A stretch of 64,000 nucleotides of DNA from Nymphaea colorata (Eukaryota > Streptophyta > Magnoliopsida > Nymphaeales > Nymphaeaceae), in assembly GCF_008831285.2 (NCBI RefSeq), contig NC_045150.1:15747362-15811361 (forward strand). Direction: 5' to 3'. Position numbers and translations under genes: made by a program. This document shows positions 9,801-36,258 of the stretch, in pieces (position 1 is the stretch's first letter; every line of letters begins with the position of its first letter). The notes below the pieces were generated by a model, which ran no database searches, had not been told where the DNA came from, and saw only the letters and a list, made by a program, of their open reading frames with translations.

Positions 9801-9889
9801 TCGATTTACAACAAAGCTTGATCACATCCTTATGAAGACTATGGTACTGGCTCAGAGCATTAGCCTGAAAACCCACAACCTTGCGCTAA

Positions 9890-10450: not shown

Positions 10451-10910
10451 AAGTTAACATTTCTCTACATCTGGGACGGTACTACTGAACTCATGATCAC
10501 CAGGTGAGCCACATTTTTTTTTTCTCTAATTCTTAAGGGCATTTTTTTGTCTTTTAACTTGGGTCATTTGGCACCCCACCCCAACCATTGACTTGAGTGT
10601 TAGGGGGCTAAGCATGCCATCTATTACCTTAGCATGTGGAAGAACAACTTGAGCAAGACAAGTTCCAGAGGGATAGTTTGTCTGCATTTTGAGGTCAGTT
10701 GGATGAAGGGAACATCTTTTAGGAGAAAGATCTCATTTCGACAGAAAAACCCATCCTAGGGTTTAAGCATTCAGCATGATACAGTGATGGGGGCGAAACA
10801 TTCAATACGAGTGCTGTCAATATTAAAACTAAGAAGTGAATCATTAACACTTGCTCATGCCGTGTGAACTCTCACTATACAGGAACCTCACACCACTTCA
10901 GCACACACTT

Positions 10911-11095
10911 GACCCACTTGTAGGGCTATATAGGAGCGAGTCAAAATTAAGCTCGTTCAGCTTGGCTCGAGCTCGTGTTTAGCTATACAAGGTCATCTAG
11001 AACTCAATTCAATAGACCAAGCCACACCTCGAGCATGACTCTTTTAAGTTCGCTTACCAACTCCCCATTTGACCAAATTTCTTTCTTTGGTTTTA
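10911..11095. repeat. GAGCTCG-rich dispersed repeat
   Basis: A roughly 180-bp unit starting CCACTTGTAGGGCTATAT and rich in GCTCGAGCTCG motifs. It recurs in the right arm (about 32,190-32,355, reversed) and alone at 49,509-49,690. Related motif-rich stretches lie at 13,690-13,850, 16,895-17,090, 17,910-18,050, 18,240-18,370, 29,420-29,590 and 44,380-44,500. It looks like a small non-autonomous transposon family. Confidence 0.55.
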
Positions 11096-11116
11096 AGCTC
11101 TATCACCTGAGTCTGG

Positions 11117-11460
11117 GGTGCGGGTGCGGTTGCCGATGCAGGTGTGAGTGCCGGAGCAGCACATTATAAAAAATTTAAGTTCGGCGGTGCGGTAAGGGTA
11201 CTTTATTATTCTTATTTTTATTAATTTATAATATATATAACAGAATAAGCATGCATATATTATCATTATAACTTAGTTATCAATGTATATAACATACTTG
11301 AATAATTGTATTGCATAGTAAAATATCACAACAACATATATTATATAAGTCATTTAGTAATATGGCATTCTAATTGGGCTCGGGTATGAGTTGGAGCAGC
11401 GCCCATGTCTGGTGCGCACCCGACTCGATGTGACTCGGGTGCAGCAGTAAAATAGAAGAG
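11117..11460. repeat. GGTGCGGGTGCGG-ended short repeat
   Basis: GC-rich ends (GGGTGCGGGTGCGGTTGC on the left, CGACTCGATGTGACTCGGGTGC on the right) flank an AT-rich middle. The same unit is in the right arm at about 31,830-32,165. The layout suits a MITE-type element. No target duplication was resolved. Confidence 0.45.
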
Positions 11461-11497
11461 TCCGGGTGACTTAGGTTTTAAGTTTAAATATTTATTG

Positions 11498-11500
<3 letters not shown>

Positions 11501-11570
<70 letters not shown>
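11501..11570. repeat. (TA)n microsatellite, 70 bp
   Basis: Uninterrupted TA dinucleotide tract. The matching site in the right arm (31,661-31,690) is only 30 bp, so the tract changed length after the arms were duplicated. A second (TA)n lies at about 12,373-12,411. Confidence 0.95.
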
Positions 11571-11574
<4 letters not shown>

Positions 11575-11599
11575 CCAGATTTGAGTTTGTTTAAACAAG

Positions 11600-12188
11600 T
11601 GCCCTTCCATTCAATTTCTTTTGACTCCATCGGAGCTCAGCCAACTCTTGAAGGTGACTAAGCTCGATTTGAGCTTCAACAACATATCTATTGAGATTCC
11701 AGCATCACCATGGGAGCTAAAGGGCTTGGACCCATATGGGAGGGTTGGTCAGCCTCGATTTGGCCTACACTTGGCTCGTTGGCACTATCCCGGCTTCCAT
11801 GGCTCGCCTGTGCAACCTGACCTACCTGTCCCTAAACCACAACGGGCCCACTGAGGCCATACCATCTGGACTCGGTGGGCTTCCCTTGATTCACGACCTC
11901 GACCTCAACTACAACCGGCTCAGGGGGCAGGTGCCGTTCCGGAAGGAGGTGGTGGAGCGGTTGGGCCCCAAGCTCAAGCTCACCGGAAACGACGGCCTGT
12001 GTCTCGGCTCGGAGATTGTCGGCACCGGCTTGGTCAGGTTGGACGTCGATGGCTGCATCTCTGACAACGTTGCCCAGTCGTTGGCCCGTGATGGCTCAGT
12101 GGTGAGCTCGAGCGGGTCGAGTCTCAGATTGGATTCTTGGTACAGTGTGGCTCTGGCCCTGCTGCCTGCTAACCTCCTCACGTTATGA
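11600..12188 (+). pseudogene. LRR protein (PII-2-like) C-terminal fragment, left copy
   Basis: The first frame reads PSELSQLLKVTKLDLSFNNIS. After a frame break and a small insertion, a second frame from about 11,736 gives consecutive leucine-rich repeats (GLVSLDLAYTWLVGTIPASM, NLTYLSLNHN, LIHDLDLNYNRL) and the closing LGPKLKL.GNDGLCLGSE segment, then a hydrophobic tail (ALALLPANLL) before the stop at 12,188. The layout resembles plant Piriformospora indica-insensitive protein 2-type LRR proteins, which have no kinase domain. The N-terminal repeats are absent and the TA tract sits just upstream. The reading after the break is open in both arms, which suggests recent duplication. The family name is tentative; the LRR nature is clear. 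Confidence 0.65.
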
Positions 12189-12370
12189 CACTAGTGTACT
12201 TTTCCACTGCTTTTTCTTATTATCTTTTTGTCTTGCGTAAAGAACATGAACAAAGTGTACATTTTTTGCTTTTTGAGTATACAAGAGGAGTCTGTTTTCA
12301 CTTTTAATCTTCAGATGAGTAATTAGACACAATTTGAGATTCTGTGTTCGCTTCCTTTGATTATATGTTT

Positions 12371-12414
<44 letters not shown>

Positions 12415-12439
12415 ACATAGAGAGAGATAGAGATTGCAT

Positions 12440-13120
12440 ATTATAGAGGCCAATAGAAAGATCTACCTCGTTCAATGGGTCTGTTCATTTAGAGCAGGGG
12501 ATGGTTTCCTGGACTTGTCTTGATAATAAAAGGATGTTCTGAAATAAGTAGAATCAGTACCGTCCGACCAAGGAGTTCTGTATTTGATAGACTCCGTTTT
12601 ATACTGTTTGTGACCGATTCGGTACACCGATCCACGTTGAATACCAAAAGAGGGTTGTTTGAATTGGCAAGGGCGGTTCGCTACTGTTTTTTTTGTTGCT
12701 CACGGGACAACTATCCAAGTTCCGTGAATGGTTTTTGTTGGACGAACGAACAAAGAAAAAGGGAATTGTAGTCAAACACGGCACCTCTAGGCCCATGGAA
12801 CCATATGTGGAGTTGGAACACACTCTCTGCAAAGAGTGGGTACAGAGGCACCACCGAACTAATCCCCTTTGTTCCCTTTGTTTTGCTTATTTTGGATCTT
12901 GGATCTCGGGCTGTTTTACTTCGATACGAATGATATGCCTTACAATAATGCATGCAATGTCATCTGACGTGTTGATCAAAATACTTTCTATTACGTGTTC
13001 TTGTTTAGATAATCTAAAAAAGACCAAAATTTTATGTGTAATTTTTAAAAATTTTAAAATAACTAATATAAAAAATATGTAAAATTGTATTTCAACTCTG
13101 GTTCGACCCTTGCCTATATA
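12440..13120. repeat. conserved arm segment of unknown origin
   Basis: Several overlapping frames are partly kept between the arms (for example GIVVKHGTS, EPYVELEH and LCKEWVQR near 12,760-12,850, matching 30,296-30,571 reversed). No family was recognised. Similarity between the arms is equally high outside these frames, so coding function is not shown. Confidence 0.35.
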
Positions 13121-13559
13121 TACAATTGCAAATGGCAAGCAAGATTAATCTTGGTACTTCCACTTTCTAATCACGCTCAAATGTTTGATATTTATCATTT
13201 GTGGTGCATCTAATTTCTTCGAGCCTATGCATCACTTTGTTTTGTATTAATTCGAGATTATACATCTTGTTGACCTAAAGGAAGCTACAATTTCTTGAAA
13301 ATAATTAAATGGGGAATTAAGCTGGGATTTATGCCTGGTAGAATTTTCTAGTTGCGTTTTCTTTCTTAAGCACGTTTCTTGGAATGATTTTGATACATGA
13401 TCAATTGCTTCTAGAAAGGGGGATGTATCAACATGAAAATGTTGGTCAAACTAAGTTATGCCTCTAAACTACAAAAAAAAAACTCAAGAAAATGTGAAGT
13501 CATAGAGAAATTAGTCATTTACATGATTGAGTTAAAAAGTTGAGATACATGAATTAAAG

Positions 13560-13860
13560 GAACTTTTAGGGGTTATTTGGCAGTAGGGACGCTTTATAAG
13601 CATCCCATGAATCAACCAAAAAATTGAGGCAGATTCATGTAACAATAATTCAAGGTTCTATATCCTTCCAAATAAGGGTGAACAATGATCCAAGCAACTT
13701 GAACTCGGCTTGTTAAAGCTTGGCTCAAACTCAAGTTCGAGCTAGCTTTTCAACTCAATGAGCCGGGCTTTAGTTGGTCGTTCAGCTTATGTTATCGAGC
13801 CAAGTTCGAGTTTGTTTAAGCTTGCTCATCCAACTCGGCTCGTTAGCACGAGAAACCGAT
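13560..13860. repeat. hAT-MITE-like block plus GAGCTCG-rich repeat
   Basis: The segment around GGGGTTATTTGGCAGTAGGG...GCATCCCATGAATC resembles sequence at 6,830-6,900 (GGGATCATTTGATGGTAGAG...TATCCCATGAAT). It is followed by a GCTCGAG-rich stretch. Both also occur in the right arm at 29,410-29,710. Confidence 0.4.
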
Positions 13861-14009
13861 ATTTATTGTTTTACTTTTCCTCATTGATTTGCCATTTTTC
13901 ATTTTTTTTCTCTCCCTTCACACTCTTCCTCTTCCATCCTCCGATGCCATATTGCCATCGTCATTCGCTCAGTTCGCTGCAGCTAAGGCCTCTGCTCAGT
14001 AAGCGTTCT

Positions 14010-14321
14010 TCACTTTCCATTGACGTGTTTTATCAGCAATGATCGCCCCTGCTCGCCATCGCCATGGACTGCTTGCTCTTCATTGTTCCCAGTCACCATC
14101 GAGGTTGTCTGGTTAACGTTCGCCATGTTCCCTAGAATAGCAGGGACCTGTTCAGCTCATCGTCTCTGAAATAGCATGTGGGTGAGGTGCCTGCCCCAAA
14201 AGTAGCGAATGCCATCGCCTTCAAAGGAGGAAAATCAAGCCCTTCACTACTGCAGCTCATTCCTTTCATCAGTATTTTCTGAATTGTCTGAATGATGGAG
14301 TCCTTTGCCTCAAGCAAAACC

Positions 14322-14363
<42 letters not shown>

Positions 14364-14930
14364 AAATCAGAGAAAACAAGGTTTCTGAAACCCTCTCTCC
14401 CTCAAATGAGGGAGGGTCTCAAAAACCCAATGATCTCTGCTCGACCAAGGGTTTCAGTCGAGTTAAGGGTTCAGCCAAACCTGTGGTTGTCAAGATAGCA
14501 GGAGTCACCGGGCAGGGAGAGACCAGAGAGGCAATTAGGGTGCAAACCTGTGGAACTTCCGCTTTGGGTGGAATCGCTGTGCTTTCAGCCTGTTCTGAGT
14601 CTGCAATTACTGAAGCCTCGGTGGGTTGTAACCGACAACACCCTGTTGTTGTGCTGCTGGAGCACCCTTGCTCCCTTTCCACTGCATATCCATCTTCTTC
14701 GACTTCCAGCCTGCACGGCCAGACTGTGGATACCCACCAGCCACGCTCGTCCCACTGCTACCTCCACCGTGCCACCCTCCATAGGTTTGATTCATCATCT
14801 GGCCCTTATCGTTCATCCTTCAGCTTCAAGAGCCAAAGCGAACACAGCAAAACAGAATTACCCGTCGCCGAACTCCTCCCCAACACAAACCAACCAAATC
14901 CGTTACCTGAATCCCTCAATGTATGATCCC
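14010..14930 (-). pseudogene. unidentified multi-segment gene fragment, left copy
   Basis: Several coding-like segments lie in the same orientation and order in both arms. Going 5' to 3' on the minus strand here: a Gly-rich segment at 14,816-14,607 (TYGGWHGGGSSG, GYPQSG); an acidic segment with a Cys pair better seen in the right arm (CALC...DVFYHP); a segment at 14,317-14,132 (IIQTIQKILMKGMSCSSEGLDF, FATFGAGTSP); and an ATG-started 38-codon segment at 14,126-14,010 ending SLLIKHVNGK and a stop. A (CT)n tract at 14,322-14,363 separates parts. The segments may be exons or captured pieces of one gene. I do not recognise the protein. Confidence 0.4.
14322..14363. repeat. (CT)n microsatellite
   Basis: Nearly pure CT dinucleotide tract, matched by a GA tract at about 28,937-28,970 in the right arm. 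Confidence 0.9.
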
Positions 14931-14992
14931 CAATCTCAAAACGAAACGATGTGCTGCACTGAAAGCGGAATCTATCAAATTCCCTAATGCTC

Positions 14993-16211
14993 TGTTTGGT
15001 TGGAGGGAAAGGGAGGGAAAGGAAGGGAGGGAAAGGGAAGGGAAGAGAAAGGATAGGGAAAGGAATGGAATGGAAAGGAAAGGAAAGAGGTGATTAAAAA
15101 TCTTGTTTGGATAAGAATGAAATGAAAGGTTAAAATCACGTTTGTTTAGACTACATAAAGGAAAGGAAAGGATATAATTTACAATTCTTTACAATAATAC
15201 CCCAATCAAAATGTTTAAAAAATTAAGAATGCGATGAGCGTTTCTCAAGTAGGCATTAGGCAAGATCAAACCGAGAATGCCTCCCAAACTCACTCAATTG
15301 GTACTCAAACAAGAGACTGTTGGAGGCGACCGATCCTTTTCCAAGCGCGATAAAGTCAAGGTATGTGTGGGTGAAGAAGAAAACCATGCAGCTTCCTCAA
15401 GAACAGCCAATCATCGTTGTGAGATGGAGAGATTGATAGAGACAATGTAGCTGTTTATGAATCCATTCCCACTCATGGATTCCAATTGACTGTGGTGGCA
15501 GGAAGCTTGTGGACTCTAATGGGGAGGCCTTTGAGGAATTCGACAAAGGGGAAAGCAGTGGGGTGATCCTGCTCGAAGGGCTCCCATTGGAAGTTGAGCA
15601 CCATGTGGTGGAGGATGATCGCCATCTCCAGCTTCACCATCATCTTCATGCCATTGCTTCTTCCTTCCCCCACCCGCTGCTGCTCCTCATGAAAATCAAG
15701 TGACAGAGAAGAAAAAGGGCGGCCGGGCCCTCCCTGCTGCTGAAATAGGGGCAGCTGGTGGCCGCCCTCTTGGTGGTGACCACCTGCCTCCATCGCAGTG
15801 AAGAAGAGAGACAGGATGGGGAGGAGGTCCGGTCTCTGTCGCCACAAAAAAATAAATAAATAAATAAAAAACAAAACCAAAGAAGAAGAAGAAGAGGCCA
15901 GGGAGGAGGCCTCAAAGAAGAAGAAGAAGAAGAAAAGAACGTACCTTCAGAAAATGGGTGTTTAAAAAGGAGGAGGAGGTCCGGTAGGGACGAGCGGCCT
16001 GTTTCTCGCGCAGCAGGGGAGGAGGCCTTGGCTCTTCCTCCTCCTTTTTTTTGTTGAAGAAAAAAACATTGAAGGGGTATTGTGTGCAGTCAACACTTTT
16101 GCTACCTTCTCCCTTTCCTTTACTTCCCAATCCGTCCGATTTGAGAGGGATTGCATTTACACTACATAATCCCTCCCTTTCCTTCCCTTTCCCTCGAACC
16201 AAACAGGCTGT
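14993..16211. mobile_element. candidate TIR element carrying a P450 exon
   Basis: The left end TGCTCTGTTTGGTTGGAGGG and the right end, read in reverse as CAGCCTGTTTGGTTCGAGGG, form imperfect terminal inverted repeats that continue into GGGAAAGGG-rich subterminal sequence on both sides. TAA flanks both ends (14,990-14,992 and 16,212-16,214), as expected for a 3-bp PIF/Harbinger-type target duplication. The interior includes a P450 C-terminal fragment and purine-rich stretches. No transposase is present, so it would be non-autonomous and gene-capturing. The right arm of the inverted duplication holds only the left end, up to 28,125. Confidence 0.5.
15497..15634 (-). pseudogene. cytochrome P450 C-terminal exon fragment
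   Basis: Inside a 135-codon minus-strand frame (15,880-15,473), the last third reads KLEMAIILHHMVLNFQWE, then a PTAFPFVEF.KGLPIRVHKL segment. This matches the end of plant P450s: the helix after the heme loop, with its L(E/A)...LHH.(V/L) pattern, and the terminal beta strands ending KGLP(I/V)RV. The heme-binding FxxGxRxCxG motif that should lie just upstream is absent, replaced by unrelated Gln/Gly-rich sequence, so this is only a captured exon end. It lies within the candidate TIR element. The P450 subfamily is not assignable. Confidence 0.55.
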
Positions 16212-16214
16212 AAG

Positions 16215-17900
16215 AAACCTGCAAGAAAAGTCCTACAGAAAACGATAATCGAAAACCTTACCTAACTATGAGAGAGAGAGAGTTGTGGAGAAATCTAGGG
16301 TTTCGAGAATGGATCCCGAGCCCTGCAAAGTTCCGTTTCCAATGAAATCAACCCGCTGGTGAGATCAGTAACGGTAGAAACTAGGGCTCACAGAACCAGC
16401 AAGAGGGAGAAAGGGGAAAGATGGAATAAGGAAGAAGAAAAGAAAAGTGCAGGGATGATGTCGTCAGACCTAGCCACCAGGAAAGGAAAACGAGAACGGC
16501 TCAGGAAGAAAGTGAGGAGAAGCGACTGGTGAGGAAGCGACTGGTCATTTGAGCAAAACGAGGAAGGGTTTCTGAAACCCACCGAATGTCTGTTTTCTGT
16601 CTAACCTCTTCGAGTGAGCTTGTCCTCCCTCAAACCCTCGCTTGAGCAAAAAGGCCTGTATTCTCTCAACCCCTTGCTCTTAGAAAGGGTTCTTACCCAA
16701 ACCTCCAGGTGTTTTGGAGACTGAAACCCATTCTAGGTCTTCAGGCTGAAGATTGTTTTTTTTCTTTTTTTAGATTTTTGTAACTTATGATTGTTCCTTT
16801 TCCTTAGCAACCTTCTGCTACTGCTGTCTTCTTCCATATTTCATACATGAAGGAATGTCGCCCTTTCCCATGAAGCATATGGAAGACTAGAACAAGCAAT
16901 TAATCGATTTAAACAAGCCGGTCGAGTCAATCTCGTGCTCAAATACAATTGGTCGAGTCAAGCTCGAGCTACCATTGCAAAGCTCGACTCGAGTTTGAGC
17001 CGACCTCAAGCTGACCAAACCAAGAGTCAAGCCGAGCTCTAGCTGGTTGGACTTGGGCTCGGCTTGGCTCAACTCGTGTCAGCACTACTTCCAAATCGTT
17101 AGTGCAAGTTCTAGGTTGGAAGCCAAGCTGCCCCTTCAACCACTAAAAGCCCTTGACGTGTTTTGGATTCTTTTTTTTAGGAGTCAACAACAATACATTG
17201 TTATTATCCCATAAATCTGCTTGAAAAAATGGAGTATATTTATGCAACAATTGGGCAAGTTAGTGAAACAACAACGTGGTGTTACTTTTACCGAACAGCC
17301 CCTCAAGCTCACCCTTCTCCTAGTCTAAATTTAATCATGCACAGCCACATTTGGCACATACAAAAATACTAATTGCATTTTTGAACTAGAAGAATTGGTG
17401 CTATATTAAATTGTGCAATTTGAAATCATGAGTCCTATTTGTAAGCTTAATAATCTAAATTAAGTATGAAAAGTAATTACTATAATTCGACCAGAAAAAA
17501 AGTCACGACCAAAATAAAGATTTCAAAACAGATTGTAGAAACACTGACTCTAAGGCTAAGTACTTAATTATATATTCTAAATGATGCTGTACAGTCAAAT
17601 TTTGAGCGCAAATATAAACTGGAGACAAACACATTACAAGCACATAAATACACTTCATAAAAGTTAAAAAATTAATATCCAAGTACACCTTCTTCCATAT
17701 AAGTACACCACGTTTAAAAAGAAGAGAATCTTGATTTTTTAAACTGTAAAGCTCGCACGAACCCTCGGAACCAAGCAACTTCCACTTGTCACCCTGTTTG
17801 TTAGTGGTCTTTAAACATTAATTAGATTCGAACTTGAAGACGCTTTAAACAAGTCACTTTTAACAACTTTTTTCCTTTCAAAACAAAGGCACTGCAAAGA
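16215..17900. other. non-coding spacer with GAGCTCG-type repeat
   Basis: No gene recognised. 16,260-16,600 is purine-rich with a short GA run. 16,895-17,090 is a dispersed TCGAGC/GCTCGA-rich repeat. 17,150-17,300 resembles the MITE-like block at 13,560. Confidence 0.4.
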
Positions 17901-19690
17901 ATGGCAGGTTCGAGCCAAGGTGAGCCAGCTCCAATTTGTTCTTGTCTCAAAAGCCAAGATCGAACTTGGCTCGAACGCTCAAGACAAGTATGAGTGGACT
18001 AGCTCGAACTCAAACTGCCGATACTAAACTCAGGCAAAAATTGGGCTGGAGCTTAGCCGGACAATATTTAAAAAAAAATAAATAAAATTCAATTTGAACA
18101 TGAGTAGGAACAGCCAGATTAGAATTTGAGAGTTGGAACTTGCTAGCAAGGGGGGAATCCGATGTTGCTGTTTATTGTCGTGATGATATTGAAAATTATC
18201 TTTTACACGTTATCTTATTGATCTTGATCTTACTCAAGTTTATGTAAATGGAGCTTGCCAAGCTCGAACTCTACTCGTTTACTTAACTTTAACCCAGACA
18301 CGACTCATTTATTAGATGAGTCGAGCTCGATCTGAGTTTAACTAAGAGACGTCAAGAGTGAACCAGAGTAGGCTCAAATCATCAAGCATCCATAATACTG
18401 TGGTGGCGTCCTGCCATGGAGTAATTGAATATCCCGTATGTCACAGAAGAAGATACATCATGCCATGGATTGTTCAAGAATTGCTGCAATACTTCATGCA
18501 GTGAACAAATAATACCATCTAAACTGAGAAGGAAAGCATCAAATAGCTGACTGGTTATATGCGCCATACTGGTGCACAAATTTTCATGTGCAAGTATGGT
18601 TGATGATGACTAAAATACCCTTAATTCACACTGAAAAAAACTTTTGTCATAGTCACATTTCTTTTTTTAACAAATGACCAAAATGTCCTTCCATCGTTTA
18701 CCATGTAACGTGCACACTGCGCACACAACTTTCTCTCTCAAATGGCAGTCATTGGGGCAGCGAGTTTGGTATTTTCGTCTAAGAAAAAGGTACCAAACCC
18801 TTAGGTGCTGGACCCATAAGGATGCTCCTAGGGGCAGAGACAAGGGGGGCTTGCATGGGCCATTGCCCTACTTCAATTTTTTTGAAAAAAAAAATTATAT
18901 GTAAATTTAAAAAAAAATCACTTGTTCTATATAAAAATTTTGGAAAATAGTGTTTTGGTCCCAGTCAAAATTTAGAAACTTTAATTCAGACCCCCCTCAT
19001 GAAAAATTTTTGGATAAGCCCCTAGATGCTCCTATGTTAAGCTTGCTTTGACTAACATGATAGTCATGAGAGCTTAATGGTTTTTGTAAGCCCATCTGCA
19101 ATCTGTTCTTTGGATGATGTTCGTCTCACAACAATAATGCCTTGAGCAACTTTGTCCTTAACAAAATGAACATCCACTTCAATGTGCTGCCTTCTATTAT
19201 GAAAAAGTTGGAATGGCTGCTATGTTTTTTTGTTCTTATTCCAAGTTCAAGTATAAATATGTGTACCACGTTGCATCTTCTGCTATGTTGGCCACTGCAT
19301 GACATTCGATCGGCCTCTATGCTACATTGAGAAACAACTTGCTGTTTTTTTTAACTTTCTGCAACAAGATTTGGTCCCAAGAAGGCTGCATAAATGTTGA
19401 CCATCGATCAATCATTTGGGCTTTCAGCTCCGTTTGCATCGCCATATATATGGACTTCTTTGTTCTTGGATGGTTTGAACTTTGACGATTAGACCTAGTG
19501 AATGGTAGCTTTTAAGAATGCTAATATTCTCTTGACAGCTCCCCATTGAGATTCCGTAGGATCCGAAATAAATTGGCAGAACCTTGTAATTACCCCAAAA
19601 TTTTCAAGTTTCGTATATATCTAGCATTTTCACAATTATTTTCAACAATTTTGGGTCTCAAATACTTCAATTTATCGCAGTTCTGATCCA
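17901..19690. other. non-coding spacer
   Basis: GCTCGAA-rich repeat fragments lie at 17,910-18,050 and 18,240-18,370. The rest is unremarkable AT-rich DNA. Open frames are short and show no recognisable domain. Confidence 0.4.
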
Positions 19691-20200
19691 ATTACCCTCT
19701 AATTTGGTTATTGACTATATTTTCGAACTCATCTGAATTTAAATCTAAACATCCAACCCAAGCCCTACCTCAATCTAGGATGATAATTCATGACAAATCT
19801 AGATCTAAACCCCATCCAAAATCCCAAGTCAAGATCCGAAAACAAGCCTGAGATAAATGTTAGATTATGGATTTTGGATTTCATACTTTAGATTTTGGAT
19901 CCTGGATCCTAGGTATTGGATATCAGATCTTGGATTATAGATCTTAGATTTTGGATTTTAGATTTTGGATATCATATTTTGGATATGAAGCATTAGATTA
20001 TGGATTTTGTATCTCCAATTTTGGATATTGAATTTTGATCTCAAACCTTGGACTTTGGATAGTGAATTTTCATAACATGGTATATGACATCTTGTATCTT
20101 TATGTGTTCTCTGTTTGAAATTTAAAACAAGAATATCTCAGATCTTGATCTTAGTTTTTGCATTCAGATCTAAATTTTTTTTGTTACGTCCACGTTCTAC
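19690..20200. repeat. degenerate GATTTTGGAT-type tandem region
   Basis: Roughly 10-14-base steps built on TTAGATTTTGGAT/ATGGATTTTG follow each other, diverged and without fixed period. A complementary-looking stretch (GATCCAAA/ATCTAAATCC steps) is at 26,890-27,190. Confidence 0.55.
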
Positions 20201-20789
20201 AAGACTCCAGGTCTACGTAACCTAGTTCTATTCCTTTGGTATTATGCAAACTTTGCCGATGGCCATATCTATAAAATTATTTTCTGTAACAGTACGAAGT
20301 TCAAGGATGCTGTTTCATATTGAAATCGTGGAAGCATTGCAATATGTGGCCCATATCTTTTTGTTATTGCCTTCAGTGTGAATAGGGGAAAAGTGAATTC
20401 CTTGAAGCATTTTTAAGATTAATCTAATTAATGTTTAAAGAGCATTAACAAATAGGGTGACAAGTGCAAGTATGCTGGGTTCTTGGGGTTCATGCAAATT
20501 TTACAATTTTAAGATTCTCATTTCTAAACAAAGTGTACTTGGATACTATGTGAGGGATAAAGACTTTTTGACCTTTATCGGGTTTATTCATGTGCTTGGA
20601 ATATGTTACTATGCAAGATGAAACTTGGACTAGGAGAAGGATGAGAACTTAAGAAAATAATCCAAAACATGTCAAGGTTATTTTGTGATTGAACACTTGA
20701 GGTTAGTAAACTGGGCCTTTAGGCAATTCCGCTTACAATGGAACCTTGAATTTGACCTGGTTCGACCAAGAACCTGGCTTGGTTCTCAG

Positions 20790-21380
20790 GAGAGGAAGCA
20801 ACTATCTGAATTAACAACGTAGAAAGCCATACCGGCATTCTCACTCATTTTGTTGGCCAATTCATTCCCAAATGCCTTTACCAAGTAAAAAGCTCGTCAA
20901 AAGTTCGTTGACCATCTGGGTGAATGTAGTGGACCTATGATCCGGTAGAGAGCCGATGCTCCTACCCAATTTCTTGTCTCCCTAAGGTACAAGATCTGTT
21001 TTCAGTGCTTTAAAGGTACTATCATCTTGTTGTGCTCCAATTTGTGCATTGGTGACCCCTCTTTGTAGCACAGGACGTTGACACCCCTAACACTCAAAAT
21101 AAACGTAGTTGACATTGCTATCCTACATATATAAAAAAAAAAAAGCAAAGTTAGAATAATTATTCAAAGTAAAGCTCACCAAACATCATAGTGCTTAAGG
21201 CAATCACTTTTTCCATTTAAGTGTTAAAAAAACAGCATAAATCCACCAAAAATAAAAGATACAATTTGTACAACCAAAAGCCTCATTCAGTGGGTTGCAC
21301 ACATGAACATGAACATGTAGACACACATTTATATGCGTTGATAGAAGAAGAAAAACGATGGAATGTAACCTAAACATTCC
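20790..21380. repeat. direct repeat, copy 1 (pairs with 25,955-26,450)
   Basis: Two blocks are shared in order with 25,955-26,450. The first includes CATTTTGTTGGCCAATTCATT and GTAGTGGAC.TATGATC. The second runs from TAACACTCAAAATAAAC to the GTTGATAGAAGAA block. A minus-strand frame in the first block (NELANKM-like) is not kept open in both copies. No domain recognised. Confidence 0.7.
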
Positions 21381-21439
21381 CTTGGGCCACAAAGCAGGGT
21401 TATTTATTAATCATCTGATGTCTGCAGTTATTTCTTTTT

Positions 21440-21600
21440 ATGTAGATGAGCCCACTTCTAGTGGATTTATTGACTACTTGAGATGGACTAAGACCCATCT
21501 CCCAATAACTTGTTTGGGTATGCCTCTTTGTCAAGGGAACTTCAGAAGTGACTATTGTGCGGAATTTGAAGGGAAAGTTACAGAAAAATTATCATTCTAG
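21440..21600 (+). pseudogene. LINE reverse-transcriptase C-terminal scrap
   Basis: The frame contains SGFIDYLRWTKTHLPITCLG followed by MPLCQGNFRSDYCAEFEGKV and TEKLSF. This matches the plant LINE RT segment after the catalytic FADD box, which reads G...LP..YLG(V/I)PL....L...D(Y/F)..L...(V/I)..KL..W. A TAG replaces the codon of the expected Trp. About 160 bp remains, with no further LINE sequence recognised on either side. Confidence 0.6.
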
Positions 21601-21621
21601 AAGTGCCGCTCGCTCGATCTC

Positions 21622-21849
21622 TTATTGTTTTGATGATAAAAATCTGGAAAAAACCGTGAAAGACTCAACCTGTACCAAGGCTTCCTGTGTTGCGGGGGAT
21701 TGTCTCTTGCAGAATATCTTCTGATTATTATTTTTCTCCTCTGACAGACTTGTGTTCTCGATCGTTGCACTTATTTTCTCAAACTTGGAAGAATTAAGAT
21801 AATATTGTCTCAAACTTGGAAGAATTAAGATAATAAGATCGTTTTGCAT
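21622..21849 (-). other. conserved unidentified coding-like fragment, copy 1
   Basis: A minus-strand frame includes SKFEKISATIENTS and EEKNNNQKIFCKR. A plus-strand frame at 40,380-40,562 reads SKYETIRATIKNTSSSGEKNNN..ILYKR, so the two regions are inverted copies. A 28-bp unit is duplicated in tandem (21,777-21,804 and 21,808-21,835). I recognise no protein family. Confidence 0.45.
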
Positions 21850-22084
21850 TAGAACCTTTTCTATCAGTCTTTGAGATTTGAAAACTTTGGTGAATAAATT
21901 GGTTGGTTGTGTGAATATTTGGCAAAAAAATAGTGAAGATTTCTTAAAATCATTTGAAAAGTCGAATAATTTAGGTCTTTTACCTAGGTTCTTAAGTTTT
22001 CCAAATGTAACATTATTACCCCTCTCTCTCTATATATATATATACATGGTTGTACATTACATGTGGCTGAGGTAACCGAGTGGT

Positions 22085-22255
22085 AGCCATGCCTGCATGC
22101 ATGAACAGGAATTACAGGTCTTTAATTTATGTATATATTATCTTTTATAAAATTTCTCATTTACTTCCTGAAAATGTAGAAGACTCAACTCCTCCTCCGG
22201 CACACATTGCTTCACATTTCCAAATCCAGTGGCACGGTTCATGATTACATTTAAA
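22085..22255 (-). promoter_or_regulatory. orphan copy of the LRR-XII promoter/leader
   Basis: Matches in order the sequence upstream of the 4,597 ATG: CATGCATGAACAGGAATT, then TTTAATTTATGTATA, then the CACATTG.TTCACATTTCCAAAT and CATGATTACAT blocks. It begins at a CATGCCTG remnant of the start-codon region and has no receptor coding sequence attached. It is a relic of a third or fourth gene copy. Confidence 0.55.
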
Positions 22256-24120
22256 AAATATGAAAAAATGCAAGAAATGAAAAAACAGGAAAATAAGAGA
22301 AAAATGAGAACAAACATGTTTTTTGTTTTGGCATTTTTTTAAAATTTATTTTTCATGTTTTTAAAACGGATTTTATAAAAAAAATTGCATTTGTTGTGAC
22401 CATATTTACTAACTAATTTTGGTTGTCATCTATGGCAACCTGAGTGGTGGTTGTGGTCAGTAAGACAAACATGTGCAACAACTAAGAGAGAAAGTTGCAT
22501 GCATTTAGTGCACCATGCGCAATAAAAGAGGAAAAACATTTCTTAATTTATTAAAAAAAATGTCCTTTATAGCCTTTTTACTTCTTTCTATTTTCAATTT
22601 TCTCTTAACTAAAATTTTCTTTTTCAATGTGGACTAAAGGTATTTTAGTCATTAACCATGCTAGCACATGAAAATTAGTGCACCAATATAACGTACATAA
22701 CTAGATTGGGCAAAATATAGGGTGGTCCATGATAGCAGGAATTGTATAGTGGCAACCCACGTCATAAATTAAGCAACGACTGGATGGTGTTGAGTACGCT
22801 GTATTATGGGACAGGCATGAATTTATCAGGTTAGCTTAAAATATACGTTCTTCATTTATTTTTGAAAAGAATTGGACATGGTTGATGAATGGGCTTGAAG
22901 AAGACGAGACATTCATTCCAATAAATGTTTCCATTAAGTGGTCAACTTGGGACTCCGGGAGCGCTACGTGCTGTTTCCTTATGCATTTCTTAATAGTTAT
23001 AAATGCTTTTTATTCTTATACTAATTTTTATATTCATCGATTCATTTTTCTGAAAGAAATATTTAGTTTTTAATTTTTTTCTTTTTTTCTGATTTGCATT
23101 TAAATCATTTAGATTATTGGATTGGCCAGTTCACCAAATTGGCAGCATTGTTGACTCGATCCAGAAACCAATTTTCCTTATTAAGATAGACTTGGTGCTT
23201 GTCATTTACTCAAAATTAAAGCTCTACGAAGTCAATAACTCCATTTGAAGCTAGCTAACTTTTCGCGAACTGAAGAGCAATATCCAAAGATGCGATGATC
23301 AAAAGTGATAAGCGGTTGATCATGCAATGGCAAGAAAACTCATTCTAATTATATAGGTGTCTCCTCCTTAGAGGCATGAGAGTTTGGTAGCCAATCAGTG
23401 ACTCTTTATTGCAAGAACAAAGATATCTTTGTCCTTGTTGTGAAGAACGAAAGGGGTGAGGTTATCGGAACAAAGAGAAGTTTGGTCCGACCAGATCGTC
23501 GGTGGGAGGCTGAACAAAATTGCTATGAACAAAAGGGGTGAGGTTGTTATAAAACTTTTGTCTTACCTTTCTTTTTTTTGTGTATCCCTATGTATTCCTT
23601 CCTCTCTAATTTTTAGACAATAAAAGGGTTGGGGGCACAAGCAAGAAATTTTTCATAAGGGGGACTGAATTAAAGTTTCTAAATTTTGATTTAAGTCGAA
23701 CTATCATTTTTCAAAATTTTTATATAGGACAAGTGAAAATTTTACATGTAAATTTTAATTTTTTTTTTATTGAGGTACAGCCATACCTTGGCTCCGCCCT
23801 TGGTTGGAGGGGCCCTTTTCCCACATGTTTCATGTGAAATATGCAAGACGGCCCCAATGGCTTAATCCCTTTGTTGTAAAAACCGATGTTTGAATCAAAT
23901 AGACAATGCTGCCAATTTGGTGAATGGGCCAACCCAATAATCTAAATGATTTTAGATACAAATGAGGAAAAATTGAAATTTTGGGCAAAATGAGTGGAAG
24001 GATAGATATAAAATTAATTAAGAATAAAAATTTTATGTAGCTTATCTTTTTTTTTTTTTTTGGTAATTTTCAAACTCACAGTGAAGAAAACAAATCAGAT
24101 CAATTGGGGAGTTGGTAAAT
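22256..24120. other. non-coding spacer
   Basis: No gene seen. 22,935-23,090 resembles 6,220-6,350. The rest is AT-rich with scattered mononucleotide runs. Confidence 0.4.
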
Positions 24121-24158
24121 GAGATTGAACTAGTCGAACTCAGTACCGATCAAGGTAT

Positions 24159-24207
24159 GAGCTGACCTGAGCTCGGAGCTGACCTGAGCTCGGAGCTGAC
24201 CGAGCTC
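24159..24207. repeat. 17-bp tandem repeat, GAGCTGACCTGAGCTCG
   Basis: Two full copies and one partial copy of GAGCTGACCTGAGCTCG in tandem, inside a GAGCTC-rich dispersed repeat (about 24,120-24,235). Confidence 0.8.
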
Positions 24208-25029
24208 AAGCATGAGCTCTACTCGTGCGCAGCCCAAGAACTTGTCCCCATATATTCTAATACAAACAACATGCACCCAGATATTCCCTACCTTATTTTT
24301 GGAGCAATCAAAAATTCAAGGCTGCCTCATGGTCTGATCTCTAGTTGTAAGAACTGACTTCTTAATCGAGTCGGCAATGTATGCTGCAAATTTAGTTAAC
24401 CGGCCAATTCAATAATGTAAATGATTTACATGCAAATCACCAAAAAAAAAGGAAAAGTGAATGGAAGAATGTACAAAATAATTAAGAATACGAATATTTT
24501 TATATCTATTAAAAAATGCATAAGGAAACAGCAGGTCGAGTTGACATACCACTAAATGCAGTGTACTCAATTAAGAAGAAAAAAAAGGATAGAGTAGAAA
24601 CCTGGCAAAAAAGAGAACGTGATGATGTGTAAATAACAGGACCTACAAGTTAGAAAAGGTGCGGTTGGCACTGAGTGTGGAAATGACAAACGACATCGCT
24701 TTCTTTTAAAGAGCAGTAGACCTGAATCTTCTAACAATTTGAATTAAACCAAAAATGAAGGTGAAATTTTCCGGAAGAAGAAAATCTACAAAAGGACTTT
24801 GCTAATTGTTCATGATCATAAGATTGCTTGGCACCTCAATTAAATGATAGAATCGATGTACATCAACCATTTCCTATCCTCTTTTGAACCAACAGACGTT
24901 CTAGCCATCGTAGTCTGATTGCAAGATAAAAATCAGCAGCGCTATGTCCCGGCAAACTTGGATCGAAATCGAATGCATAAGTTGGCCTAATGAGACCATT
25001 AGTCAAAGGGATATTAACCAGTTTTATCA

Positions 25030-25700
25030 TTCAATAATTTTGGAATAAAACTTATTTTCTTGGTGAGTAGGAGAGACCACTGGAAAGACGGCTACCCAAA
25101 CTCGACCCACCTTAGACCCATATCTAGGCACTGTAGCTGGCCTGTCAGGCCCCAGACATGTCGAGCCGGGTAGTACCGCCCAACAACCTAACAGGCAAGG
25201 ACCAAGCATTATAGTCAACCCATCAGCATCCTGGCAGGCCCGACAATTTTTTTAAATTAAAAAGATTAAATACAACTCAAAACGTGAAAAGAAGGTTTGC
25301 TTCGTTCTCTCTTGCATGGATAAATTTAGCTTATTACAGTGGAATTGGCTAAAGGCTATGAAATTGAACCAGGCAAGTACTTGGATTTGAATTCTGATTC
25401 GAATACGAACGCGAAAAGTTCATACCCAAACTTTTCATCCCAAATCAGATTTCAAAGTCTAAATCCAGTCCGAATCTGATTTTTATATAAGCCTGTATCT
25501 AAAACAGAATTTTGAACCCAATCCAAACGATTTTCAAAATGTAAGAGCACTGAATGTAAGACTGTCATTTAAAACTAAATTTGACCTAAATCTGAATTTG
25601 AATCTGATTAGATATTTGTGTATATCTAAATCTCATCCGATCAAATGTCATTTTTTAAATCTGAATGTAGTCTAATTTCCTAATTAAATATTATTTTTTC
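25030..25700. repeat. GC-rich repeat followed by inverted GATTC-type repeat copy
   Basis: 25,040-25,250 is a GC-rich GGCCTG/GGCCCG-type dispersed repeat. 25,380-25,690 is a minus-oriented copy of the GATTCAGAT family, with TTTTCAAAATGTAAGAGCA marking the family core. No coding content. Confidence 0.5.
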
Positions 25701-25954
25701 CTCACATGTTGTTTTTTAAGGAACGGTTTGGGTGGATATCTGATGTAAATTGGAAGAAAAAAATGCCCTTGAAAATTAATAGAAAAAAAAAGTTACCCTT
25801 CACATGGTATGAATTTAGTGATCAAGCCCTCGAATACACAAAAGCAAAAGGCGTCATTGGGAGTGCACGGCAAAGCCAGTACTGGGCTGACAGGGAGACC
25901 TGAATTTGGGAGTTTAGACTCTAGAGGTCATGTAGATATGGTCATGTCATTGAT

Positions 25955-26450
25955 ATTGTTAGTAGAAAGCGATAGCAGCATTCTCATTCATTTTGTTGGC
26001 CAATTCATTGCCAAATGTCTTTACCAAATAAAAGCTCATCAAAAGTTTTGTCGACCATCTGAGATAGTGTAGTGGACTTATGATCTGCTAGAGAGCCAAA
26101 TTGCCTACCCAATCTCGTCTGCCTTGAGCCTGAACTGTACTATCACCCCTGCTTCAATTTGACACCCTAACACTCAAAATAAACATAGCTGACATTGTCA
26201 TCATGCATATATAAAAAATAATAGCAAAGTTAAAATAATTATTCAAACTAAAGCTCACCAAACATCATAGTGCTTAAGACAATCACTTTTTCCATTTAAG
26301 TAATAAAAAAAGCAGCATAAATCCACCAAAAATAAAAGATACAATTTGTACAACCAAAAGCCTCATTCAGTGGGTTGCACATATGAACATGAGCATGTAG
26401 ATAGACATTTATACGCATTGATAGAAGAAAAAAGACGGAATGTAGGTAGC
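25955..26450. repeat. direct repeat, copy 2 (pairs with 20,790-21,380)
   Basis: Same two blocks as the first copy, with a shorter middle. The copies lie about 5.1 kb apart in the same orientation. Confidence 0.7.
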
Positions 26451-28124
26451 TTGCGAGCTTTAGACACCTAGTAGTTGAGTGAATAAACTATAATAAATGC
26501 AGAAAAGTTTATCTAACTTAAATAAGGTCCAAACTTCGACAAGTTATGATATTTGGTAATCCATATACAAGAATTTTGAAAGTGGAATGGAGGGAGGAAG
26601 GGTGTTCGAAAAGGGCGGACCTTCTCGGGTTTCTGATGATGGATCCCCCCCTGGTAAATCCTCAACAACAAGATTGTGGGTGGAAATCTGTGGTTCTCAT
26701 CATCAAGATTCAGAAGTGGATGTTGAGCAACTCTCAATTCAGATGATATATGGAACACCAATATTCAAGATCTCTTCAAGGGTCTTGGAAAAATGAAGCA
26801 ACCCTTTCGTTGGACTGTGATTGGCTGTTTTATTGGAGACTTACAGAGGAAGAGCAATGTATATGCTTGCATTGCTAATGACCTGAGAAATCCCAACTTT
26901 AGATAAAAAATAGATCCCCAAATCCCAATCTGGATCTAAAGCTAAGCCTTCATCGCAAATTAAGATCCAAATTCAAAGTTTCAGATCCAAAGTGGAACCT
27001 CAGTTCCAGGCCCAAATCTAAATCCAAGGTCCAGATCCAAAATCGTGCCCTAGCTAAAAAAAAGGTTAAAAACTCATATAGACTCGAGAATCAAAATCAG
27101 GCCCAAAATAGGAAAATAGATTCAGAAAATGGCCCACAGGTCTAGATTAGATCAAAAAACCAAAAATCTAGATAAAAAAATATTTCAAATTCAAATGTTT
27201 GAAATTGAGTCCAAGAATCAATTGTCAACATCATTGCTGCCCCTCGCTTTTCAATTCGACTCAGATTCGTAAAATTCAAATCTGGATGTATAATCCATAT
27301 TTCAAGCCTAAGCACCTATCTAATCTCCCATCCAACCTTCGACATCGATCTGCGACCTTGAAGGAAATTAGATCCAGATCGAAAACCAACCTGTAATCAT
27401 AAAAAATGGAGCCGGACCTGCTTTATGAAAGGAATATTTTACATCTTAAAACAATTACATATTTTTGTGTTAAACTTTGATTATTTTTAGGGTGGGAACT
27501 ACCTGGGGATGGCAAGGGGCAAAGGCTACCCTCAATTTGCCCCCATGCATCAAGTTTTGGCAGTGCTTGGTGCACTGCCTAGAGCAATTGTCGCACTACT
27601 AAGTGCTCTGGCGTAGGGTGCAGGGCACTACCGTGCACGGTGCTATTGAGTGGTATGGTTGAGAGTGCACGGCCACACCAAATGCTCTGTCACCCCCCTC
27701 CAAGGGTGTTTGCAGGGCCAAGGGCTAATCTCCACAACCCATAAAAATAAAAATAAAAATAATTCAAAAAAATGAAAAATTCATAAGAAATCTTGAGAGA
27801 TTAAAACTCTTTCACATGTTGAATTTTAGCTTTATTTCTTTCTATAAATAGCCCACCTCTACATCTTGATCCTTGGGTATAAGCTGCTAACCTTTGAGGA
27901 ACTCCTTGAGCCCTCTAACTATGAGCATGGAAGTCGTTTTTGTCTCTATTCCTTCATCAATTCTTCTCTGGCTATTTCAACACTTTTTCGTCTTCAAACT
28001 TGGGATTCTCCTTCTTTTCCAACCTTCACCTTCAACTAGTAGAAAGGAGAGCACGTGGAGACCCTTGGAAAGCTTCTTCAACACGCCAGAGTTTTCATTT
28101 TGGACTCATCTCTTCTTAAACTAT
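26450..28124. other. non-coding spacer up to the right arm
   Basis: 26,890-27,400 is a degenerate GATCCAAAT-type low-complexity region. 27,480-27,740 holds a GC-richer stretch with repeated GTGCA/GCACT words. No gene is recognised. Confidence 0.4.
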
Positions 28125-28339
28125 ACTAATCCAAACAAGCTTTTTAATCACCTCTTTCTTTTCCTTTCCATTCCATTCCTTTCCCTTCCCTTTCTTTTCC
28201 CTTCCCTTCCCCTCCCTTCCTTTCCCTCCCTTTCCCTCCAACCAAACAGAGCGTTAGGGAAGTGTAGTTCAAAGAAGAGGGTTTTGATAGATTCCACTTT
28301 TAGCGAAGCACGTCGTTCCTTTTTTAGATTGGGGATCGT

Positions 28340-29283
28340 ACATTGAAGGATTCAGGTAATGGATTCGGTTGGTTTGTGTTGGGGAGGAGTTCGACGACGG
28401 GGAATTCTGTTTTGCTGTGTTCGCTTTGGCTCTTGAAGCTGAAGGAAGAATGATAGGGGCCACATGATGAATCGAACCTATGGAGGGTGGCACGGCGGAG
28501 GTAGCAGTGGGATGAGCATGGCTAGTGGGTATCCACAGTCTGGCCATGCAGGCTGGAAATCGAAGAAGATGGATATGCGGTGGAAGGGGAGCGAGGGTGT
28601 TCCATCAGGACAACAACAAGGTATTGTCGGTTACCACCCGCCAAGGCTTCAGTAATTGTAGACTCAGAACAGGCTGAAAGCACGGTGATTCTACCCGAAG
28701 CGGAAGTTCCACAGGTTTGCGCCCTATGCGCCATGGAATACGATGTCTTTTATCATCCGTGCGAAGAAGTCTGGGGGAATTGCCTCTCTGGTCTCTCCCT
28801 GCCCGGTGACTCCTGCTATTTTGACAACCACAGGTTTGGCTGCTGAAACCCTTGGTCGAGCAGAGATCATTGGTTTTTGAGACCCTCCCTCTTTTGAGGG
28901 AGAGAGGGTTTCAGAAACCTTGTTTTCTCTGATTTAGAGAGAAAGAGAGAGAGAGAAAGAGAGAGAGAGAGGGTTTCGCTTGAGGCAAAGGACTCCATCA
29001 TTCAGACAATGCAGAAAAAACTGATGAAAGGAATGAGCTGCAGTAGTGAAGGGCATGATTTTCCTCCCATGAAGGTGACGGCATTCCCTACTTTTGGGGC
29101 AGGCACTTCGCCAACCTCCTATTGCAGAGACGATGAGATGAACAGGTCCCTGCTATTCTAGGGAACAGGGCAAATGGCAACCAGACGACCTCGATGGTGA
29201 CTGGGAGCAATGAAGAGCAAGCAGTCCATGGCGATGGCGAGCAGGGGCAATCGTTGCTAATAAAACACATCAACGGAAAGTGA
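28340..29283 (+). pseudogene. unidentified multi-segment gene fragment, right copy
   Basis: Same segments as in the left arm, now on the plus strand: EEFDDGEF-like sequence near 28,390; the Gly-rich TYGGWHGGGSSG segment (28,464-28,655); VIVDSEQAEST...EVPQVCALC (about 28,655-28,730); the GMSCSSEG segment (about 29,025-29,060); and a final segment ending LLIKHINGK with a stop at 29,281-29,283. The ATG that starts the last segment in the left arm is AGG here. The CALC...FY pattern could be half of a zinc-binding site, but no family is assigned. Confidence 0.4.
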
Positions 29284-31060
29284 AGAACCCTTACTGAACG
29301 GAGGCCTTAGCTGCAGCGAACTTAGCGAAAGATGATGGCAATATGGCATCGGAGGATGGAAGAGGAAATGAAAAATGACAAATCAATGAGGAAAAGTAAA
29401 ACAATAAATATCAGTTTCTCGTGCTAACGAGCCTAGTTGGATAAGCGAGCTTAAACAAACTCGAACTTGGCTCGATAACATAAGCTGAACGATCAACTAA
29501 AGCCTGGCTCGTTGAGTAGAAAAGCTAGCTCGAACTCGAGTTTGAGCCGAGCATTAACTAGCCGAGTTCAAGTTGCTTGGCTCATTGTTCACCCTTATTT
29601 GGAAGGATATAGAACCTTGAATTATTGTTACATGAATCTGCCTCAATTTTTGGGTAGATTTATGGGATGCTTATAAAGCGTCCCTACTGCCAAATAACCC
29701 CTAAATGTTCCTTTAATTCATGTATCTCAACTTTTAACTCAATCATGTAAATGACTAATTTCTCTATGACTTCACATTTTCTTGAGTTTTTTTTGTAGTT
29801 TAGAGGCATAACTTAGTTTGACCAACATATGGATGTTGATACATCCCCCTTTCTAGAAGCAACTGATCATGTATCAAAATCATTCCAAGAGACGTGCTTA
29901 AGAAAGAAAACGCAACTAGAAAATTCTACCAGGCATAAATCCCAGCTTAATTCCCCATTTAATTATTTTCAAGAAATTGTAGCTTCCTTTAGGTCAACAA
30001 GATGTATAATCTTGAATTAATACAAAACAAAGTGATGCATAGACTCGAAGAAATTAGATGCACCACAAATGATAAATATCAAACATTTGAGCACGATTAG
30101 AAAGTGGAAGTATCAAGATTAATCTTGCTTGCTTTTTGCAATTGTATATCGGCAAGGGTCGAACCGTTGTTGAAATACAATTTTACATATTTTTTATATT
30201 GGTTATTTTAAAATTTTTAAAATTTACATAAAAATTTTGATTTTTTTATATTTTCTAAACAAGAACACGTAATAGAGAGCATTTTGATCTACACATCAGA
30301 TGGCCATTGCATGCATTGTTGTAGGGCATATCATTCGTAGTGAAGTAAAACAGTCCGAGATCCAAGATCCACAATAAGCAAAACAAAGGGGACGAAGGGG
30401 ATTAGTTCGGTGGTCCCTCTGTACCCACTCTTTGCAGAGAGCGTGTTCCAACTCCACATATGGCTCCATGGGCCCAGATGTGCCGTGTTTGACTACAATT
30501 CCCTTTTTCTTTGTTTGTTCATACCGACAAAACCTTTCACGGAACTCGGAGAGTTGTCCCGTGAGCAACAAAAAAAACAGTGGTGAACCGCCCTTCCCAA
30601 TTCAAACAACCCTCTTTCGGTATTCAACACGGATCGGTGTATCGAATCGGTCGCAAACAGTATAAAACGGAGTCTATCAAGTACAGAACTCCTTCGTCGG
30701 ATGGTACTGATACAACGTAGCTCAGAACGTCCTTTTATTATCTAGACAAGTTCAGGAAACCATCCCCTGCTCTAAATTGAACAGACCCATTGAGCGAGGT
30801 AGATCTCTCTATTGGCCTCTATAATATGCAATCTGTCTCTCTATCTTTCTATATATATATATATATATATATATATCAAAACATATAATCAAAAGAAGCG
30901 AACACAGAATCTCAAATTGTGTCTAGTTACTCAACTGAAGATGAAAAGTGAAAACAGACTCCTCTTGTATACTCAAAACGAGAAAAATGTACACTTTGTT
31001 CATGTTCTTTACGCAAGACAAAAAGATGATAAGAAAAAGCAGTGGAAAAGGACACTAGTG

Positions 31061-31640
31061 TCATAATAAGAAGAGGTTAGCAGGCAGCAGGGCCAGAGCC
31101 ACGCCGTACCAAGAATCCGATCCGAGACTCGACCCGCTCAAAATCACCGCTGAGCCATCATGGGCCAATGACTGCGCTACGTTGTCAGAGATGCAGCCAT
31201 CGACGTCCACCATGACCAAGCCGGTGCCGACGATCTCCGAGCCGAGACACAGGCCGTCGTTTCCGGCGAGCTTGAGCTTGGGGCCCAACCGCTCCACCAT
31301 CTCCTTCTGGAACGGCACCTGCCCGCTGAGCCGGTTGTAGCTGAGGTCGAGGTCGTGAATCAAGGGAAGCCCACTGAGTCCAGATGGTATGGCCCCGGTG
31401 AGCCCATTGTGGTTTAGGGACAGGTAGGTCAGGTTGCGCAGGCGAGCCATGGAAGCCGGGATAGTGCCGACGAGCCAAGTGTAGGCCAAGTCGAGGCTGA
31501 CCAACCCCGCCATATGGCCCTCGGTGATGCTGGAGTCTCAATAGATATGTTGTTGAAGCTCAAATCGAGCTAAGTCACCTTCGAGAGTTGGCTGAGCTCC
31601 GATCGAGTCAAAAGAAATTGAATGGAGGGGCACTTGTTTA
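31061..31640 (-). pseudogene. LRR protein (PII-2-like) C-terminal fragment, right copy
   Basis: Minus-strand counterpart of 11,600-12,188. The frame from 31,513 reads GLVSLDLAYTWLVGTIPASM and continues through the repeats to GNDGLCLGSE and ALALLPANLF. The upstream repeat (LDLSFNNIS) is again in another frame and follows a TAG, but this copy lacks the short insertion seen in the left arm. It therefore looks closer to the pre-duplication state. Confidence 0.65.
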
Positions 31641-31658
31641 AACAAACTCAAATCTGGT

Positions 31659-31694
<36 letters not shown>

Positions 31695-32393
31695 CAATAA
31701 ATATTTAAGACTTCACACAATCCACAATGTGGCTACGCTACTGGTTCCGGCTGAGGTCAAGAACGATGAGCTAGGTGTTCTTTTGAAATTTTCAAACATA
31801 AAACCCAGGACTCTTCTATTTTATTGCCGCACCCGAGTCACATCGAGTCGGGTGCGCACCGTGCATGGGCACAGCTCCAACTCATACCCGAGCCCAATTA
31901 GAATGCCATATTACTAAATGAATTATATAATATATGTTGTTGTGATCTTTTAGTATGCAATTCAATTATTCAAGTATGTTATATACATTGATAACTTAAT
32001 TATAATAATAATATATGCATGCTTATTCTCTTATATATATAATAAATTAATAAAAATAAAAATAATAAAATACCCTTACCGCACCGCCGCACTTAATTTT
32101 TTTATAATGTGCTGCTCCGGCACCCACACCCGCATCGGCAACGGCACCCGCACCCCGCGCTCAGGTGATAGAGCTTAAAACCAAAGAAAGAAATTAGGTC
32201 AAATGGGGAGTTGGTAAGCGACCTTAAAAGAGTCATGATCGAGGTGTGGCTTGGTCTATCGAATTGAGTTCATGCTGACCTTGTATTGCTAAACACGAGC
32301 TCGAGACAAGCTGAACGAGCTTAATTTTGACTTGGCTCCTATATAGCCCTACAAGTGGGTCAAGTGTGTGCTGAAGTGGTGTGAGGTTCCTGT

Positions 32394-35403: not shown

Positions 35404-35662
35404 TCAATGCTCTATGCTTCTCCCCTCAGAGGTTCTCTCTCCGTCAATTTCCATCCCCCCGGCGAGCACCGGGGGTTCCCCTCCAAGCTTTCCCTTCCCC
35501 ACACGATGCCCTAGCCTGCTCTCCCCTCAGAGCTTCTCTCTCACATCTCTAAGGGGGCCTTCTTCATCTAGTTGGAACAGTCCTTGCTGCTAATCATTGA
35601 GGCCTGTTGGTTTTGCTCGTCTACTAAGTTGCTGTCGAGCTCTCTCTTTACTTATTCTTTGA
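35404..35662 (-). other. probable LINE 5' UTR
   Basis: GC- and CT-richer sequence upstream of ORF1 with repeated CCTTCCCC/CTCCCCTCAG words, ending close to the start of the neighbouring LTR. The exact 5' boundary and target duplication are not visible. Confidence 0.4.
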
Positions 35663-36246: not shown

Positions 36247-36258
36247 TGTTATCAGAGC
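36247..36258 (+). other. primer-binding site (tRNA-Met type)
   Basis: TGTTATCAGAGC directly abuts the CA end of the LTR and differs by one base from the usual plant copia PBS TGGTATCAGAGC. Confidence 0.7.

Follow-up and report, generated by a model that had tools for sequence, protein, structure and literature searches.

A 4.2-kb inverted segmental duplication in Nymphaea colorata, probably an inverted copy placed at a nearby break

A 64,000-nucleotide stretch of Nymphaea colorata DNA (contig NC_045150.1, positions 15,747,362–15,811,361; hereafter the window, with coordinates counted from its first letter) carries two long arms in opposite orientation: a left arm at 10,878–15,118 (+; 4,241 bp) and a right arm at 28,123–32,394 (−; 4,272 bp), separated by a spacer of 13,004 bp (15,119–28,122). 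Self-BLASTN of the window recovered the pair as two neighbouring minus-strand matches (10,878–11,493 with 32,394–31,786, and 11,525–15,118 with 31,707–28,123; each E = 0), and global alignment of the left arm with the reverse-complemented right arm ran from end to end over 4,116 columns with 93.5% identity. A previous sequence-only reading had described collinear inverted arms with edges at 10,879, 28,125 and 32,393, each of which agrees with the alignments to within 1–2 bp. The TA tracts that it gave as 70 and 30 bp measure 71 bp in the left arm (11,501–11,571) and 31 bp in the right arm, where the matching sequence is an AT tract at 31,661–31,691.

The arms differ at about 6.5% of aligned positions. 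The 267 substitutions (163 transitions and 104 transversions; Kimura two-parameter (K2P) distance 0.068 from the global alignment) are scattered, and the alignment contains 24 gaps, 11 of them at least 5 bp long, supporting the view that the arms have diverged since duplication. Relative to the right arm, the left arm lacks 78 bp in three pieces near 11,467–11,475 and 52 bp at 14,536; relative to the left arm, the right arm lacks 40 bp of the TA tract. The sequence-only reading had proposed self-alignment to fix the edges and identity, and had named an identity close to 100% as the sign of an assembly artefact; both are now fixed, at an identity of 93.5%. Because of the 6.5% divergence and the 24 gaps, a mirrored assembly error is very unlikely. 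The 4,116 aligned columns exceed the length used for segmental duplications (at least 1 kb), and the identity over aligned columns exceeds the usual threshold (at least 90%); when gap columns are counted, the two BLAST blocks are 89.3% and 92.1% identical, and the larger block is thus just below 90% by that measure. The pair is best read as a real, old and ordinary inverted segmental duplication, not as a new kind of element. As in other intrachromosomal inverted segmental duplications, the copies lie near each other on the same sequence, exceed 1 kb in length and 90% in identity (the definition in PMC2671141), have arbitrary ends, and enclose a gene fragment and repeats; nothing basic differs.

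Gene fragments had been claimed for both arms, and the same leucine-rich-repeat piece was indeed found in each. It is a decayed remnant from the 3′ end of a receptor-like gene with leucine-rich repeats, open for 155 codons in the left arm (11,721–12,185, +; LRR_1, E 2.7e-7) and of 158 codons in the right arm (31,064–31,537, −; LRR_1, E 6.7e-10). In a PDB search the left-arm fragment matched the ectodomains of GSO1 and FLS2, and we presume a likeness to the PII-2 type of receptor-like protein. Comparison of the right with the left copy gave a ratio of non-synonymous to synonymous rates (dN/dS) of 0.58–0.63 over 150 codons, with 8 synonymous and 21 non-synonymous changed codons. Purifying selection on the fragment was considered and is not convincing, since 21 of the 29 changed codons are non-synonymous and the fragment is short; constraint would be weak at most. 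None of the other open arm pieces scanned gave a Pfam match above the cut-off, and weak sub-threshold matches were taken as noise. The piece at 28,526–28,843 may resemble a Pcf11-type zinc finger; a PDB search with it gave no match up to E 1. Within the window, the only arm sequence that recurs at length is the outer tip, where a repeat of about 195 bp (10,902–11,097, +) has a third copy at 49,499–49,687 (BLAST identity 85.8%, also recovered by alignment); otherwise there are only short matches.

The inner edge of the left arm (about 15,112–15,118) does not coincide with the end of any element and continues unbroken into a 1,223-bp element (14,988–16,210) that spans it. This element has terminal inverted repeats and is bordered on both sides by TAA (14,985–14,987 and 16,211–16,213). 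Its termini match each other in inverted orientation over about 37 bp (92% in a local match free of gaps). Aligned in this way they score 59, while the best of 500 dinucleotide shuffles reached 33. One internal piece gave a sub-threshold match to DDE_Tnp_4 (E 0.11), and the termini and the TAA look like those of PIF/Harbinger elements. A search for the element end, allowing up to 8 mismatches in 37, revealed three sites in the window: the two ends of the element itself (0 and 7 mismatches) and the right arm (1 mismatch). Just the first 125–131 bp of the element are present in the right arm. Because the element is whole at the left arm and reduced to these bases in the right arm, the left inner junction appears to predate its right-arm counterpart.

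At its outer edge the right arm meets remnants of a LINE (long interspersed nuclear element) type that occupy 32,352–37,069, with DUF4283 matches at E 3e-12 and 2e-14 and endonuclease matches below the cut-off; DUF4283 is a mark of plant LINE-like proteins. The endonuclease part of a LINE-type open reading frame 2 (32,352–33,449, −; 366 codons) stays open to the outer edge at 32,394 and for 14 codons past it, with DUF4283 upstream at 34,558–34,854 (E 3e-12). The Pfam matches of this frame (PF03372, E 2.2e-4; PF14529, E 0.0012) are both below the curated cut-offs and cover residues 18–155 only.

The heptamer TATACTA is found at the inner edge of the right arm (28,122–28,128, +) and again 2 bp beyond its outer edge (32,397–32,403, +), where GG separates it from the end of the arm. 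The chance of such a shared 7-mer is 0.0006–0.0023 with the edges taken as fixed, 0.0025–0.006 once the imprecision of the inner edge is taken into account, and 0.04–0.07 if any position within 10 bp of both edges counts. As a possible target-site duplication of the right arm, the repeat is suggestive only; if it is one, the right inner edge would lie nearer 28,129. No exact 6-mer direct repeat was found within 10 bp of the edges around the left arm or around the whole 21.5-kb unit (10,878 and 32,394), a search that an old, mutated repeat could escape, and no poly-A tail was seen at the arm edges.

Analysis of the substitutions revealed that 88 of the 163 arm transitions are located at CG sites. 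The transition rate was 16.2% at CG (88/544), 2.2% at CHG (12/556) and 2.6% at CHH (63/2,446). Across nine repeat pairs of the window (the arms included, two short comparisons with the third copy of the tip left out), the CG rate was 2.3–6.8 times the CHH rate and the CHG rates scattered around CHH (0.2–1.6 times), with some CG counts of the eight non-arm pairs resting on just 8–10 CG positions. The two tip comparisons showed transitions at 0 of 26 and 2 of 26 CG positions. We infer from this pattern that the arms decayed as unconstrained DNA under CG methylation, with no special mark of their own. In K2P distance the arms (0.068) fall slightly below the range of the eight other pairs measured (0.078–0.133); the tip comparisons, kept apart from these, gave 0.109 and 0.120.

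One tract of the arms, 13,175–13,677 (500 columns), contained only 11 differences, compared with shuffle minima averaging 21.2, and none of 2,000 shuffles was as low. This tract is CpG-poor (5 CpG in 503 bp). When only transversions were counted, the lowest-difference window was located elsewhere in the arms and was not significant (p 0.35); removal of CG sites left the lowest windows at 13,175–13,677, none of them significant (p 0.44 for a window of 300, 0.17 for 400 and 0.12 for 500). Gene conversion between the arms is not supported, since the low-divergence tract loses its significance without CG sites.

We favor an origin in which repair of a nearby break introduced the right arm as an inverted copy of the left locus, and give this reading a probability of about 0.6. 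The break would have hit a LINE, or a site next to one, some 13 kb away from the source. Repair would have placed there, in the opposite orientation, a DNA copy of 10,878–15,118, with the left locus, on the same chromatid or on its sister, serving as donor for strand invasion or template switching. The copied stretch would have started 24 bp outside a repeat and stopped at an arbitrary point within a mobile element, and both arms would thereafter have decayed as unconstrained DNA with CG methylation. We infer the direction of copying and the repair mechanism from the junctions, reading the left arm as the source and the right arm as the derived copy. If the left inner junction is the older, the two junctions of the right arm should both be new under an inserted-copy model, in agreement with the cut LINE-type frame, and the lower divergence of the arms than of the other repeat pairs fits a later event. 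Breakage or repair, which the sequence-only reading had offered as one possible origin, thus fits best, as the right arm truncates an element that is whole at the left arm and cuts the LINE-type frame. Nearby repair-mediated duplication by strand annealing has been described in vertebrates (PMC2671141), and such duplications share several features with the arm pair: a nearby donor on the same chromosome (here 13,004 bp between arm edges), a duplicate adjoining a broken repeat element, no visible poly-A tail, and a filler (here 2 bp) with a possible short flanking repeat.

Several observations weigh against this origin. The same survey, which concerns vertebrates, found no repair-mediated duplication that was unequivocal beyond a length of 619 bp; the arm, at 4.2 kb, falls outside this size range and is long for the strand-annealing route. 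Because the family match covers residues 18–155 only, the last ~590 bp before the right outer edge are called LINE by their open frame, with no family match. After a simple insertion the LINE would be expected to continue on the minus strand beyond the other end of the right arm, below 28,122, but no LINE or reverse-transcriptase match was found in the six short pieces scanned of the 16 listed on that strand; with the LINE unrecognised there, the insertion model has to assume a deletion or an older junction as well. At the left outer junction (10,878), a partial paralogue (42.6–44.4 kb) loses similarity 32 bp before the edge (43,830–43,861); it gives no sign that this junction is ancestral, and for the same reason it was considered and rejected as an empty site of the left arm.

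The main rival, a micro-inversion by staggered breaks, is in our estimate a serious but doubtful alternative. Staggered breaks leave a segment enclosed by two copies of a single fragment in opposite orientation. This is the architecture of the arms and is described for Drosophila subobscura inversions (PMC5080602), and it arises without the need for a long copy to be placed into a distant break. However, this model requires one ancestral inner junction together with an ancestral outer junction on the other arm. Since the left inner junction appears ancestral, the same is expected of the right outer junction, and the cut LINE-type frame located there would be a coincidence, a point against the model though not a decisive one; moreover, within the window no repeat links the left flank to the far end of the spacer. 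Set beside the Drosophila duplications, the junctions of the arms agree better with an inserted copy. A mobile element bearing gene fragments (such as a Pack-MULE or a Helitron) that inserted twice, independently, could account for arms in which a receptor gene fragment is joined to other sequence and for the possible 7-bp target-site duplication around the right arm, yet the left inner edge lies 125–131 bp inside another element, the left arm has no exact 6-mer flanking it within 10 bp, and the arm ends are not inverted copies of each other (score 11 in both arms, equalled by more than 90% of 1,000 random 80-bp pairs); we regard such insertions as unlikely. A single foldback-type transposon of 21.5 kb, with the 4.2-kb arms as its terminal inverted repeats, would explain why long inverted termini enclose a spacer, but it is hardly credible given the lack of an exact 6-mer direct repeat within 10 bp of its two ends, arm edges that lie within other elements, and the absence of any transposase match above the cut-off in the 15 spacer pieces scanned, the nearest being the DDE_Tnp_4 match (E 0.11) within the 1,223-bp element.

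A further rival explanation is a working long-hairpin locus, kept because its small RNAs silence relatives of the receptor fragment. The arms share 69 perfect complementary runs of at least 21 bases, the longest of 121 bases, and 985 of the 4,252 right-arm 21-mers are found in the left arm (TA-tract words included). A transcript through both arms would span 21.5 kb; such a read-through transcript could pair, and hairpin small RNAs from the arms are possible on these grounds. A precedent is Arabidopsis IR71, a transcribed inverted repeat whose double-stranded RNA of about 3 kb is cut mainly by DCL2 and DCL3 and also by DCL4 (PMC12825306); loci of this kind show that inverted repeats of kilobase size can supply Dicer enzymes with substrate. 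The arms here resemble IR71, as described there, in being complementary enough for a hairpin, but differ in the 13-kb spacer. The inverted-duplication model of microRNA gene origin likewise starts from inverted arms with hairpin-level complementarity, again without a 13-kb spacer. Against a working locus stand the length and the repeat-rich nature of this spacer and the lack of any significantly conserved stretch in the non-CG divergence along the arms. As weaker evidence, change was no more frequent at CHG than at CHH sites, whereas lasting RNA-directed methylation might have raised both. We therefore hold a hairpin kept for silencing to be highly improbable, and see equally little chance that the pair is transcribed as, or forms in trans, long double-stranded RNA whose small RNAs would act on related leucine-rich-repeat receptor genes.

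The pair lies in a repeat-rich region whose genes and mobile elements appear to be of plant kinds, and its surroundings contain further repeats and gene remnants. Older direct repeat blocks (7,881–10,737, 37,895–45,112 and 46,486–53,135; BLAST pieces of roughly 76–96% identity) form a broken tandem arrangement that flanks the inverted pair on both sides, and the spacer holds further diverged repeats, such as 21,078–21,367 with 26,159–26,444. No Pfam match above the cut-off was obtained for the spacer in the 15 open pieces scanned, a subset of which one member extends into the right arm. A remnant of a leucine-rich-repeat receptor-kinase gene was identified by Pfam at 58,323–61,142 (−; kinase at 58,323–58,886, leucine-rich repeats at 60,237–61,142), and a second receptor fragment at 4,094–4,741 (−) is 75% identical to part of it (4,138–4,613 with 60,545–61,017). 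A tandem array at 54,808–55,097 consists of three copies of a 91-bp pyrimidine-rich unit and is overlapped by an open frame of 179 codons (54,833–55,369). The window has a G+C content of 38%, with no tRNA and no Rfam match at gathering scores. Bacterial and archaeal contigs scanned for one exact 40-base sequence gave no match, and a protein scan of viral contigs gave two pattern matches, neither of which was confirmed; by their descriptions these collections contain no plant genomes, and absence from them says little.

The arm pair is mostly a worked example, in which a truncated mobile element suggests the direction of copying, and its CG-biased decay illustrates how uneven methylation-linked mutation can mimic gene conversion in such a pair. 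Its importance would grow only with the finding of small RNAs; if these acted on related receptor genes, which is improbable, an accidental repair duplication would have become a regulator of immune-type receptors.

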